Source: Bacteroidota bacterium (lineage in GTDB: Bacteria; Bacteroidota; Rhodothermia; Rhodothermales; JAHQVL01). Taken from it: a DNA stretch of 36,503 nt. Location of the stretch: contig JBCCIM010000041.1 in NCBI GenBank assembly GCA_039111535.1, positions 1-36,503 of the forward strand, in the 5' to 3' direction. A model generated the notes under the pieces. The model saw nothing but the letters and a program-made list of their open reading frames with translations, was not told the DNA's origin and did no database searches. The position numbers and the translations under genes were made by a program. Numbering within the stretch: position 1 is the stretch's first letter; every line of letters begins with the position of its first letter. Below are positions 32,180 through 36,503 of this stretch, in pieces.

Positions 32180-33556
32180 TTAATTCTGATGCGGATATTT
32201 AATTTCACGCGCAGATTCAGCATCCATTCGGCGAATGTCTTCTTCGATCTGTCGTCTTCTCCGCTCAAGCACCTGGTCATCAAACGGACGGTTGTTGCGG
32301 ACCGTAAGCGGATCAAGCATGCGTGCCTGGAGAATAATCAGCAATTCACGCTGAATTTCATCATGGCGGTTATAGCCAAACAGGTAACGCAGCCCAAAGA
32401 ACCAGGGCGGTAAATCTTTAAGGATAGGAATACCACGGCGCGAGACGCTTTTTTCAGTAGAGTAGAGCCCACCGATGATTGTCTGCTCACCGTCAAGCAG
32501 AAGCACCTGGGTATCTGCCCGGTTACGGTCAATGACAACGCCGGCTGCTGTTGGTCGGCCCGAAGAGTTTTCCACGTTGACATCCAGATGAATAAATTCT
32601 AGCACTTGCCCCCCTAAGGTATCAGCAAGTTGCTCGCGGATTACGGTTGGCGTTACGTCGATGATAATACCCGTCTGGAAAAACTGGGTTACCGTATTAC
32701 CGGCAAAGTCACGTTGCTGAACCGGTACATCAGAACCAATCTGAATGTTACCAACCTGTCCGCTCTGTACGGTTACAGAAGGGTTGGCAATAGTACGACC
32801 GAGGCCTTCTGTTTCAAAGACACGGAGCAACTGCGTGAGTGCATTCAGTGAAATCTGGTCTGGCCCGACAATGAAGTCTTCAAACTGGCTAAAAAACTCT
32901 TTGGTATTCAGCGCAATCTGTGGAATCTGTCCGGCTCCACCCGCCGCGCCGCCGCCAGCGCCGCCACCTGCGCCTCCTGCACCGCCGGCACCGCCGCCGC
33001 CAGCCTGTGGCCCAAACCAAACGCTCCAGTCAACACCAAGCTCAAGTGACTTTGTGAGGTCTGCATCAAACAGAATAGCGTTGATCTGAACTTCGCGTGT
33101 TGCCGATGTAGCAGGCACTGCAATAACGCCGGCTCCCGGATCGCGACCAGAAGCCTGGTTGGCATCCATGACCAGCGGAATGGCCGGTGCATTTTCAATA
33201 ATGTAGTAGCGATCATTCTCGCGATAGGTGAGTCCTTTTGTGTTGAGGACTACTTCAAGCGCATCGAAAAAGTGAGAGCTTGTTATCGCGATACCAATGG
33301 GTTCTGTTCGTGCTTCAGGATCGATAACCTGCTTCTGTGTAACCCGCTGAAAAATGGGGTTCATGAACTCAATAAACTGGTCCATGCGGGTGTCAGCCCT
33401 GAAAGAAACCACCTGGTCAGGTGGGACATAGGTACGGATTCCTGATCCTGCCGGGGGGCGCTGGGCAAGTACTTCTTGAACAGAGATCAATAGAAATAAA
33501 CAAACAAATACAGCAAAGAGGCCCCGACCCTTCGATCCCGGGATGTTCAACGTCAT
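32180..33556 (-). CDS. pilQ: Type II/IV secretin (PilQ/GspD-like), short form
   Basis: An outer-membrane channel protein of about 458 residues. It has a signal peptide (FAVFVCLFLLISVQEVLA-Q), an N0/STN domain at about 48-125 (VVSFRADTRMDQFIEFMNPIF, then ITSSHFFDALEVVLNTKGLTY) and the secretin core at about 153-410 (REVQINAILFDADLTKSLELGVDW, GRTIANPSVTVQSGQ, IGSDVPVQQ, TGIIIDVTPTVI, LLDGEQTIIGGLYS, SRRGIPILKDLPP). No N1/KH-type repeats and no AMIN domain lie between N0 and core, so it is much shorter than typical PilQ. A Gly/Ala-rich loop is at 183-212, and the 50-residue tail after the core is charged. AGGAG precedes the double ATG; ATG 33556 is best spaced, ATG 33559 possible. It is the last gene of the operon. 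Confidence 0.88.
   Translation of the reverse strand: MTLNIPGSKGRGLFAVFVCLFLLISVQEVLAQRPPAGSGIRTYVPPDQVVSFRADTRMDQFIEFMNPIFQRVTQKQVIDPEARTEPIGIAITSSHFFDALEVVLNTKGLTYRENDRYYIIENAPAIPLVMDANQASGRDPGAGVIAVPATSATREVQINAILFDADLTKSLELGVDWSVWFGPQAGGGGAGGAGGAGGGAGGGAAGGAGQIPQIALNTKEFFSQFEDFIVGPDQISLNALTQLLRVFETEGLGRTIANPSVTVQSGQVGNIQIGSDVPVQQRDFAGNTVTQFFQTGIIIDVTPTVIREQLADTLGGQVLEFIHLDVNVENSSGRPTAAGVVIDRNRADTQVLLLDGEQTIIGGLYSTEKSVSRRGIPILKDLPPWFFGLRYLFGYNRHDEIQRELLIILQARMLDPLTVRNNRPFDDQVLERRRRQIEEDIRRMDAESAREIKYPHQN
32924..33013 (-). repeat. Gly/Ala low-complexity stretch in the secretin
   Basis: GCC/GGC-type triplets code about 30 residues, almost all Gly or Ala, in the first strand region of the secretin core. 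Such linkers occur in other secretins at this place. The stretch is prone to slippage, so its length may vary between strains. Confidence 0.7.
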
Positions 33557-33697
33557 CATTCTCTCCTATTGTCGCACGCAAAATGCAAGATTGGATCTAA
33601 AAAAGAAATGCAACACTATAGCTTGCCTACCAATCGAGCCGAAAACGTGTTTACTTTAAATAGATTAATTCAATAAATGCTAAAAATATCAAAAACC

Positions 33698-34702
33698 TTA
33701 CCAATTACTGGACGGTGTAAGCCTAGTTCCGCCTACTGCGCGCCGATAAGACTCCTCATTATTCAAAAATACTTCTACGCGGTCAATAATACCGCCCTTA
33801 TTTAATCGAGCATCTACTTTACCGGACAGTGGATCGATATCGGTAATTTCACCAAGATAGATATTGTCGCCCACACCAAGTGTCCGGTAGCCAGATTCGT
33901 CTCTAAATACTGCTTTTCCTCCCACAATGGATATCAATTCTGTACCAACAGCCTCGATCTCGAGCAGTCCATCTGTATTGGGGGGGATATTTTTCAGGAT
34001 GCCAGGATAAAACGGATTGATGGCCGGCGCATTATCTGGCAGAATATCTTTTGGTACCGGCGGTAACTGGCTAGACCAGCCTGTCGGCAGCAATTCGCCT
34101 TCCATCAGTTCCGCAAACAAGTCTTCTGGGGCACTTACGCCTTCTGTACCGGAATAATAGGCGTTCAGGGTCATCCGGAAAGAAACCATGATCTGCATCC
34201 GCTCCTTCCCTGTTTTCTTGTCTGTAGAAATCAGGTCAATTTCGTCTAGCGTCAGGTCATTGATGCGGTAGAAATTGCGGTTATTTTCGATGTCCCAGAT
34301 AAACTTATAGAGGCTGGGGAAGTAGGCCCTGCCATCAACGGCATACGTATGGTAGCTATAGTCTGGCTCTGTCTTCGTGCCGGTAGCAGTTACGTCAAAG
34401 TTTTTGAATCCGGATGCGGTAAGACCGTTCAGGTAGCCAATCACTTCCGGGCTTTTCAACTCTTCCGGTATAATTTTGTAACGCGCAAACCAGCGACGCG
34501 TCGCATCTTTAGCGGCCGATTCCGAACTGGTCTGTTTCAGAAACAGCTCATCCAGTTCTGCCTTTTTGAGGCGCACAACCTTTTCAGCGCGGATAGCGCG
34601 TTCCAGGTCATCTTCCTTGGCATTCATCATGTAATACCCCAGACCAATAACAATGGCCCAAAGAAAACCCATTACGAGAACACTATAGCCTATTTTACCC
34701 AT
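33698..34702 (-). CDS. Pilus assembly protein with PilO-like and PilP-like halves
   Basis: The 334-residue product begins with one membrane helix (GYSVLVMGFLWAIVIGLGYYMM), a charged coiled-coil stretch (residues 29-58), then a PilO-like periplasmic domain to about 185 (VDGRAYFPSLYKFIWDIENNRNFYRINDLTL resembles the PilO central strand and helix, quoted in part). A Pro-rich linker (205-245) leads to a small beta domain at about 246-316 (GGKAVFRDESGYRTLGVGDNIYLG, then GKVDARLNKGGIIDRVEVF), which matches the HR domain of PilP/GspC. PilO and PilP are separate proteins in most type IV pilus systems. It lies 13 bp after the PilM/N-like gene and 138 bp before the secretin. PilO identity is inferred from gene order and layout, as sequence similarity is weak. 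Confidence 0.65.
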   Translation of the reverse strand: MGKIGYSVLVMGFLWAIVIGLGYYMMNAKEDDLERAIRAEKVVRLKKAELDELFLKQTSSESAAKDATRRWFARYKIIPEELKSPEVIGYLNGLTASGFKNFDVTATGTKTEPDYSYHTYAVDGRAYFPSLYKFIWDIENNRNFYRINDLTLDEIDLISTDKKTGKERMQIMVSFRMTLNAYYSGTEGVSAPEDLFAELMEGELLPTGWSSQLPPVPKDILPDNAPAINPFYPGILKNIPPNTDGLLEIEAVGTELISIVGGKAVFRDESGYRTLGVGDNIYLGEITDIDPLSGKVDARLNKGGIIDRVEVFLNNEESYRRAVGGTRLTPSSNW

Positions 34703-34715
34703 AACTAATTTTTAT

Positions 34716-36503
34716 CTACGGGACAGGCGGCGTGCCTGTCTGTGGTGCAGGATCTGCTGCTTCGTTTTCAGTAGAGATGGCGCCTTCAACCTGGTTACGC
34801 AGGTATTTCGCTGCGGCCGGCAAATCGTCAATTACCGGTACGCGCATTCTAAAGCTGAAAACAGGCGCTTCACGAATTTCAGAATATGTAAGGGATTCAA
34901 TGTCACCGTCGAGATTGGTTGCAAGGTCTACCACGCGGTCTCTCGCTGATGACGTTCCAACAATCACGAGCTCAGTGCCTTCAGGACGCCAATTGTCAAT
35001 CCAGATGCCCCGAACACTTGCTGTTGCCTCAGACACTTGTTCAAGTGTACGGCTCCATTTATCACTCCCTTTGAGCAAATCATCCAATACTGTTAGTGCA
35101 TTCAAATAAGAAGCCGTAACCGTATCAAAACTGTCGATACGTGCCTGAAGGACATTGGCATCAGCACTCTGGATCTCTGCCGGATATTCTGCCAACATCT
35201 GCTGATACTGGGCAATCTCTTTATCAATTGAGATGTACTTGTAGACAAAGAAAAGCCCTGTGAGCATGATGAGCAGACCAATTACAGGGATATGCCAGGT
35301 AATTGGAATTTTAAACCGCCGTTTGATCAGGCGATTCGGCATCAAGTTGATTTCGTCGAAGACACCGAGGAAACGATCTTCAGGGACTAACCGCAGTGCG
35401 GAGGCTACTGCCCCAACGATTGCACTGGTATTGGCCTCATCAAGTCCCAGGTCACCCAATTCATAGACAGTTTGACGGAGAGACGATACCCGGGAATCCG
35501 GGAAGAACATTTCAAAACTCTCAACCAGTTCTTCCTCACGCTCTTCGCTGAGGAGAAACACGTGTTGTACTTCGTTAATCCCGTGCTCATCCTGTTGCAG
35601 GAGCACACGGCTACAAATCGTTTCAGGCGATTCATAGGCCGTCAGCGAGCGCAGGCTCTCATAATGTAGCAACTGGCTCCCACGCATGAAGAGTACAAGC
35701 GTATCTTCAGTGCCGGCGCGCACGATGAGCGAGTGTGTTCGCTCCGGGGGCGTCTGAACGGAAGACGTAGCAAGTGCAGAACGGGCCAGGCCAAGATACA
35801 AAGGTACCTCAGCGTCTAGAATTCGAACCGTTGGGAGGCGCGCATTCTGCTGCTCACGCATAGCAAGCAGCGTAGCAATAACAGAATCTCGCTGTTTAGG
35901 GAAAACAGCGAGGTATCGCAATTCGCCTGGCTCAATGCTGTTCATTTTCAGGAAGCCTACCCGGTTGGCTTCATAGCCCCCCTGGTATTGCTCACCGAGC
36001 ACTTTCAGCAGCCAGGATCGATCAGAATTTTCGACGCGAAAACCCGCACCTTCTTCTTCTTCCTTGCCTTTTTTCTCAGCAGCACTAGAACGGAGTTCAA
36101 CGTGCATGACATCTGAAGAATCAGCACAAAATGCAACGATGGGATCTTCGTAACCGGTGTCTTTACATTCAGCAAGGATATCGCCGAGTTCGAGAACGAA
36201 GGTAGATGAAATGCCGCCGGCCATGTCTTCTTCTGAGTCCATCAGACCCGATGCATTGCCACCGCCAAATTCAGAGTTCAAGAAAAGATTGCTTCCCGCG
36301 TCGGTACCATCACCAAATTGAATGGTAAAATCTCCGCCTGAAGATGCATCTTCCTGCAATTCTGGAACGCTGGTCATAATACCAGCCTGCGCACCTTTGG
36401 TGACCCGTTGCCGCGTAAAACGGCGAAGCACGCGCACACTCTCTCCTTCTGCCTGTAACAAGACAGCGTGGAGCATGCGGTTAGTCACCATCACACCGAG
36501 CAC
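34716..36503 (-). CDS. PilM-like plus PilN-like fusion protein (start cut by right edge)
   Basis: 595 residues are visible and the frame runs to the window edge, so the start is missing or just outside. Residues 1 to about 380 look like a divergent PilM actin-like domain: VLGVMVTNRMLHAVLL as first strand, HSLIVRAGTEDTLVLFMRG in place of the usual D-x-G phosphate loop, and SAIVGAVASALRLVPED at the end. An insert at about 50-110 is rich in Gly, Ser, Asp and Glu. From 384 the sequence is PilN-like: INLMPNRLIKRRFKIP, a membrane helix (404-424), a coiled coil, then RGIWIDNWRPEG. The tail is polar and Pro-rich. In most pilus systems PilM and PilN are separate proteins that bind each other. The GTG at 36503 is probably an internal Val codon. 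Confidence 0.7.
   Translation of the reverse strand: MLGVMVTNRMLHAVLLQAEGESVRVLRRFTRQRVTKGAQAGIMTSVPELQEDASSGGDFTIQFGDGTDAGSNLFLNSEFGGGNASGLMDSEEDMAGGISSTFVLELGDILAECKDTGYEDPIVAFCADSSDVMHVELRSSAAEKKGKEEEEGAGFRVENSDRSWLLKVLGEQYQGGYEANRVGFLKMNSIEPGELRYLAVFPKQRDSVIATLLAMREQQNARLPTVRILDAEVPLYLGLARSALATSSVQTPPERTHSLIVRAGTEDTLVLFMRGSQLLHYESLRSLTAYESPETICSRVLLQQDEHGINEVQHVFLLSEEREEELVESFEMFFPDSRVSSLRQTVYELGDLGLDEANTSAIVGAVASALRLVPEDRFLGVFDEINLMPNRLIKRRFKIPITWHIPVIGLLIMLTGLFFVYKYISIDKEIAQYQQMLAEYPAEIQSADANVLQARIDSFDTVTASYLNALTVLDDLLKGSDKWSRTLEQVSEATASVRGIWIDNWRPEGTELVIVGTSSARDRVVDLATNLDGDIESLTYSEIREAPVFSFRMRVPVIDDLPAAAKYLRNQVEGAISTENEAADPAPQTGTPPVP

Follow-up and report, generated by a model that had tools for sequence, protein, structure and literature searches.

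A type IV pilus-like gene set with fused PilMN and PilOP platform proteins and putatively leaderless pilins in the Rhodothermia (Bacteroidota)

The stretch of DNA considered here (the window) represents an entire contig (C41, 36503 bp) of a draft genome of a member of the class Rhodothermia, phylum Bacteroidota (355 contigs, 97.6% completeness). Three genes on the minus strand, at the contig end, encode a PilM-PilN fusion, a PilO-PilP fusion and a short secretin, the first of these being truncated at its 5' end, as the window comprises the whole contig. The features are as follows.

34716..36503, minus strand: pilMN fusion gene, 595 residues seen, open at the contig end, with about 10 N-terminal residues on contig C25
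35352..36503, minus strand: PilM-like actin-fold half, residues 1 to ~384, from Foldseek on a low-confidence model
35337..35351, minus strand: INLMP motif, corresponding to INLLP at the start of PilN, where the alignment with Myxococcus PilN starts
34716..35351, minus strand: PilN-like half with a membrane helix, a coiled coil and a periplasmic domain, from a profile match to PilN of 3jc8
33698..34702, minus strand: pilOP fusion gene, 334 residues, with orthologues alignable over the full length
34103..34702, minus strand: PilO-like half, residues 1 to ~200, with a membrane helix, a coiled coil and a permuted ferredoxin-like domain
33698..34018, minus strand: PilP-like all-beta half, residues ~229-334, behind a proline-rich linker, from predicted topology and hhalign
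32180..33559, minus strand: short secretin, 459 residues, with a glycine-rich segment, matching Pfam Secretin and the PilQ family
32315..32815, minus strand: secretin channel domain

Both the coordinates and the domain matches agree with the original prediction, in which these three genes were proposed to cover all of PilM, PilN, PilO, PilP and PilQ. The start of pilMN is found on contig C25 of this genome, the final 14 nt of which match exactly the 14 nt that open the minus strand of the window. The joined frame runs on as MQKKRSSDL-VLGVMVTNRM (joined reading of the pilMN start: MQKKRSSDLVLGVMVTNRM), in agreement with the intact relative, MQSKRSSDLILGVMVTGRM, from the close relative L015 (MAG, Rhodothermaceae bacterium), in which PilMN is of 608 residues, and in which pilB, pilT, pilMN, pilOP and the secretin gene share one contig. 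On C25, upstream and on the same strand, genes are present for two pilin-like proteins, PilC, PilB, two small membrane proteins and a PilT-family ATPase, the series ending with the first codons of pilMN. Thus the pilB, pilT, pilC and pilin genes that had been proposed to be sought directly beside the window are indeed present, but on a separate contig. PilB (935 residues) matches TIGR02538 with E=1.7e-116 and 390 bits, which is under the model cut-off of 675.65, and the PilT-family ATPase matches TIGR01420 with E=4.3e-93 and 312.3 bits, versus a cut-off of 319.1. PilC is matched by the GspF and PilC models (E 3.4e-45 to 2.4e-42) and by T2SSF (E=4e-28). The two small membrane proteins carry an N-terminal hydrophobic helix and look like minor pilins; such proteins appear to begin at this helix, with some of the frames open further upstream. 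In one relative, the largest of the minor pilin-like proteins (L091:4824-6140) matches DUF7305 (E=8.4e-21). Outside of the operon, the source genome also encodes three orphan ATPases, one PilB-like and two PilT-like (C1:37728-38912, C185:7009-7680, C44:9507-10088).

As to the identities of the fused proteins, when each is scanned singly against Pfam and NCBIfam, PilMN returns a weak PilN match alone and PilOP nothing convincing, and profiles were therefore built from relatives. The PilN half matches Myxococcus PilN (3jc8) with E=1.4e-7 when a profile of 29 homologues is used, and with E=2.3e-11 when a phylum-wide profile is used. Escherichia coli HofN also matches this half, and HofP and HofO give no useful profile match. 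The aligned PilN region opens at an INLLP-type motif, in the form of INLMP at the junction here. In standard systems, the INLLP start of PilN binds PilM in trans. For the PilM half, no sequence match was obtained, and a Foldseek search with a low-confidence model gives PilM for each of the ten best matches (E 1.2e-6 to 9.3e-6). The AlphaFold models were each built from the window protein and one relative (two-sequence alignments), with mean pLDDT of 44.5 and 35.4, and a confident model was obtained for no part of the machine; Foldseek results on such poor models are considered here because the best matches are specific. A SPOR domain match, a possible link to peptidoglycan or the septum, is seen beside the PilM and PilN parts in 4 of 29 PilMN homologues (alignment A1). 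The sole PilM_2 match elsewhere in the genome is FtsA, in the cell-division cluster. Separate pilN genes, which would have argued against the fusion, were found nowhere else in the source genome.

A profile of the PilO half of the second protein matches Myxococcus PilO with E=2e-5, and the two best Foldseek matches of this half, again on a low-confidence model, are PilO. Among 15 PilOP orthologues drawn from distant families within the class, 14 match Pfam PilO, and these orthologues align with the window family over the full length (hhalign, probability 100). The assignments of PilM, PilN and PilO are thus well supported. The PilP half is predicted to be all-beta (low-confidence model), and in one profile-profile comparison it matches separate PilP-like genes with P=2.6e-5 and a probability of 75%, one of these genes in turn matching Pfam PilP weakly (E=0.0077). 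The identity of this half is moderately supported, presenting the weakest link of the domain assignments. Accordingly, of the predicted PilO-like protein ending in a PilP-like beta domain, the first part is backed by profiles, Pfam and Foldseek, and the second part has moderate support. The secretin matches both Pfam Secretin (E=4.2e-28) and the PilQ family (E=4.6e-27), and the genome search found no other secretin. At 459 residues, with no Pfam match to AMIN and a weak match to STN, it is fairly described as reduced, as had been proposed.

The fusions and the gene order are not a peculiarity of one genome. Of 196 genomes sampled from the class, 137 contain PilMN homologues, and complete genomes from the class, as well as distant families within the phylum, share the order pilins, pilC, pilB, pilT, pilMN, pilOP, secretin. 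As both the fusions and the order are real and conserved, and as no separate pilN is found in the genome, the suggestion of a lineage-specific machine is supported. Viral contigs were also scanned for relatives, and none were found. Some of the operons contain additional genes. One example is a gene of the O-antigen ligase family (Pfam Wzy_C), found between the pilin gene and pilC in several relatives (L095:1824-3311, L086:3243-4796) and not found at that place in the source genome, whose product could glycosylate the pilin. Another example is a cyclic nucleotide-binding domain protein encoded within the operon in some families (L090:12861-13364, L144:9250-9636), which suggests second-messenger control.

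With respect to known systems, core motor, platform and channel functions are shared with the type IVa pilus (Myxococcus xanthus, 3jc8), including PilB, PilT, PilC, PilM/N/O/P in the form of two fused proteins (with PilP of moderate support) and the secretin, and the platform order M-N-O-P-Q is kept. The differences are the fusion of PilM to PilN and of PilO to PilP, the shortness of the secretin, pilins that appear to be leaderless, and the lack of a detectable A24 prepilin peptidase. PilMN also resembles GspL of type II secretion, in which an actin-like cytoplasmic domain, a membrane helix and a periplasmic domain make one chain, and the PilMN complex has been called the orthologue of GspL (PMC4471445). 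Unlike type II secretion, the present system includes a PilT-family ATPase, a second fusion, of PilO to PilP, and no GspG-type pseudopilin in the operon, as no N_methyl protein is found in the source genome. Most type IV pilus clusters of Campylobacterota possess pilM and pilN as one gene, with the pilMNOPQ order seen here, and the accessible portion of that report names the M-N fusion alone (PMC11870540). The PilM-PilN fusion by itself is therefore not new, given the GspL layout and the fused pilMN genes of Campylobacterota; the PilO-PilP fusion is less familiar. More unusual than either are the putatively leaderless pilins and the lack of a detectable prepilin peptidase, both of which were out of reach of the original prediction, made from the contig end alone. 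In the genome of Melioribacter roseus, pilT, pilQ, pilB and pilC have been reported but not pilA or pilD, and this set was taken by the authors to be incomplete (PMC3534657). As far as the published description goes, this gene list fits the present system.

The pilin-like proteins of the operon start with MGQQQLLL, the aligned copies all having MGQQQ or nearly so, and 133 of the 196 class genomes encode them, with several copies per genome. Further copies in the source genome are located off the operon (C14:14847-15251, C162:3083-3526, C4:37565-37969). In 62 of 66 copies (a few of which were recovered twice from overlapping loci), the start is preceded by an in-frame stop, and the interval separating the two contains none of the codons ATG, GTG, TTG and CTG; 25 of 26 further copies from the phylum follow the same pattern, the stop sometimes being directly adjacent. 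Many of the MGQQQ genes are preceded by a GGAGG-like ribosome site at a normal distance. One could argue that a very short stub, MG or MGQ, is cut by a peptidase of an unrecognized kind, since glycine is found at position 2, the MGQQQ start is nearly invariant, and the best PDB alignment pairs residue 9 of the query with residue 6 in a pilin chain of known structure, placing about three residues before the mature start. We consider such cutting unlikely. Methionine aminopeptidase normally removes methionine preceding glycine, so such removal here would be its usual work, and no candidate membrane peptidase was noticed on reading through the operons. The known class III leader peptides are of 6-26 residues and are mostly hydrophilic (PMC4471445), and with the stop upstream and no alternative start, no leader of this length can be encoded; thus the leader that marks class III prepilins is absent from nearly all copies. 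No description of leaderless type IV pilins was found in searches of an open-access library, outside of which most subscription journals and preprints lie.

Are the MGQQQ proteins pilins at all? They show no significant sequence match to known pilins, the MGQQQ profile matches classical pilins weakly (probability 5%), and when the phylum-wide profile is compared to the PDB, the four best matches are type IV pilins, all of them non-significant (E 0.12-0.34). The lack of significant similarity would suit a machine that is a pilus-free secretion or uptake system, with the MGQQQ proteins as its small membrane accessories. This we find improbable, as the MGQQQ genes open the operon beside pilC and pilB and are present in several copies per genome, and as the proteins are of pilin length, have a hydrophobic N-terminus that hardly varies, and are found together with pilMN (see below). 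We infer that the MGQQQ proteins are filament subunits from the place of their genes in the operon, their size and N-terminal helix, the number of copies, the co-occurrence and the non-significant PDB ranking.

A dedicated prepilin peptidase is considered an invariably found component of type IV filament machines (PMC4471445), but a model search for the A24 prepilin peptidase found none in the source genome, where a very divergent peptidase may have escaped it, and no classical N_methyl prepilins were found in this genome either. Among the 196 genomes of the class, A24 is present in 15 and N_methyl prepilins in 23, and 121 of the 133 pilin-bearing genomes are without A24. In a sample of 394 genomes from the phylum, the leaderless pilin is present in 129, A24 in 51, and both in 15. 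With genomes treated as independent, which related genomes are not, 125 genomes of the class have both PilMN and the leaderless pilin (p=7e-27), 14 have both N_methyl prepilins and A24 (p=1.3e-14), and the leaderless pilin and A24 are distributed independently (p=0.39 for the class and 0.63 for the phylum), so that a strict mutual exclusion of the latter two is rejected. In several of the A24-positive genomes, the peptidase adjoins another gene set, which is T2SS-like and includes GspG-like pilins. A minority of the phylum has a second locus, of T2SS-like type (L050-L056, L058, L059, L071), in which PilM and PilN are fused and PilO and PilP are encoded by separate genes; several of these loci include GspG-like pilins and the A24 peptidase. 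In other systems, the MSH loci lack a peptidase, but their host genomes have one (PMC6668835), and Nanoarchaeota have been noted for the lack of any detectable peptidase (PMC4471445).

One objection would be that this is an ordinary type IVa pilus with fused platform genes, whose true pilins and peptidase are located elsewhere and were missed, given that the core motor, platform and channel components are all homologous to those of the type IVa pilus, and that the source genome is an incomplete draft. It carries little weight with us, as neither A24 nor N_methyl prepilins are found in the complete, single-contig genomes that possess the system (G003, G010, G032), and as the A24 and N_methyl searches match, respectively, 12 and 8 of 14 control genomes.

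We therefore favor, with a probability of about 70%, a reading in which the three genes of the window encode the platform and the channel of a type IV pilus-like machine with leaderless pilins and no prepilin processing. The pilins would be inserted into the inner membrane N-in/C-out, starting with MGQQQ and losing at most the initiator methionine, and with the N-terminal helix at nearly mature length at synthesis, there would be no leader to cut. PilB, with PilC, would extract the pilins from the membrane into the filament, and PilT would withdraw or disassemble them. PilMN and PilOP would couple the cytoplasmic motor via the periplasm to the secretin, through which the filament would exit; as each is a single predicted chain, the ratios of PilM to PilN and of PilO to PilP would be fixed at 1:1. 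The roles in assembly and retraction are suggested by homology, and N-terminal processing, extension and retraction of the filament would follow this scheme. The machine may serve in adhesion, twitching or DNA uptake. That these systems together make up a branch of type IV filaments common through much of the phylum, with leaderless pilins and the prepilin peptidase dispensed with, also appears probable to us, if somewhat less so.

If this is true, leader cleavage would not be essential for filament assembly, and the motor, the platform and the channel would have been kept with pilins devoid of leaders. This would also explain why pil loci in the phylum have been taken for incomplete sets (PMC3534657), and the purpose of both the leader and Glu5 would become testable. 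The two-protein platform, in turn, should make structural studies of PilMNOP simpler.
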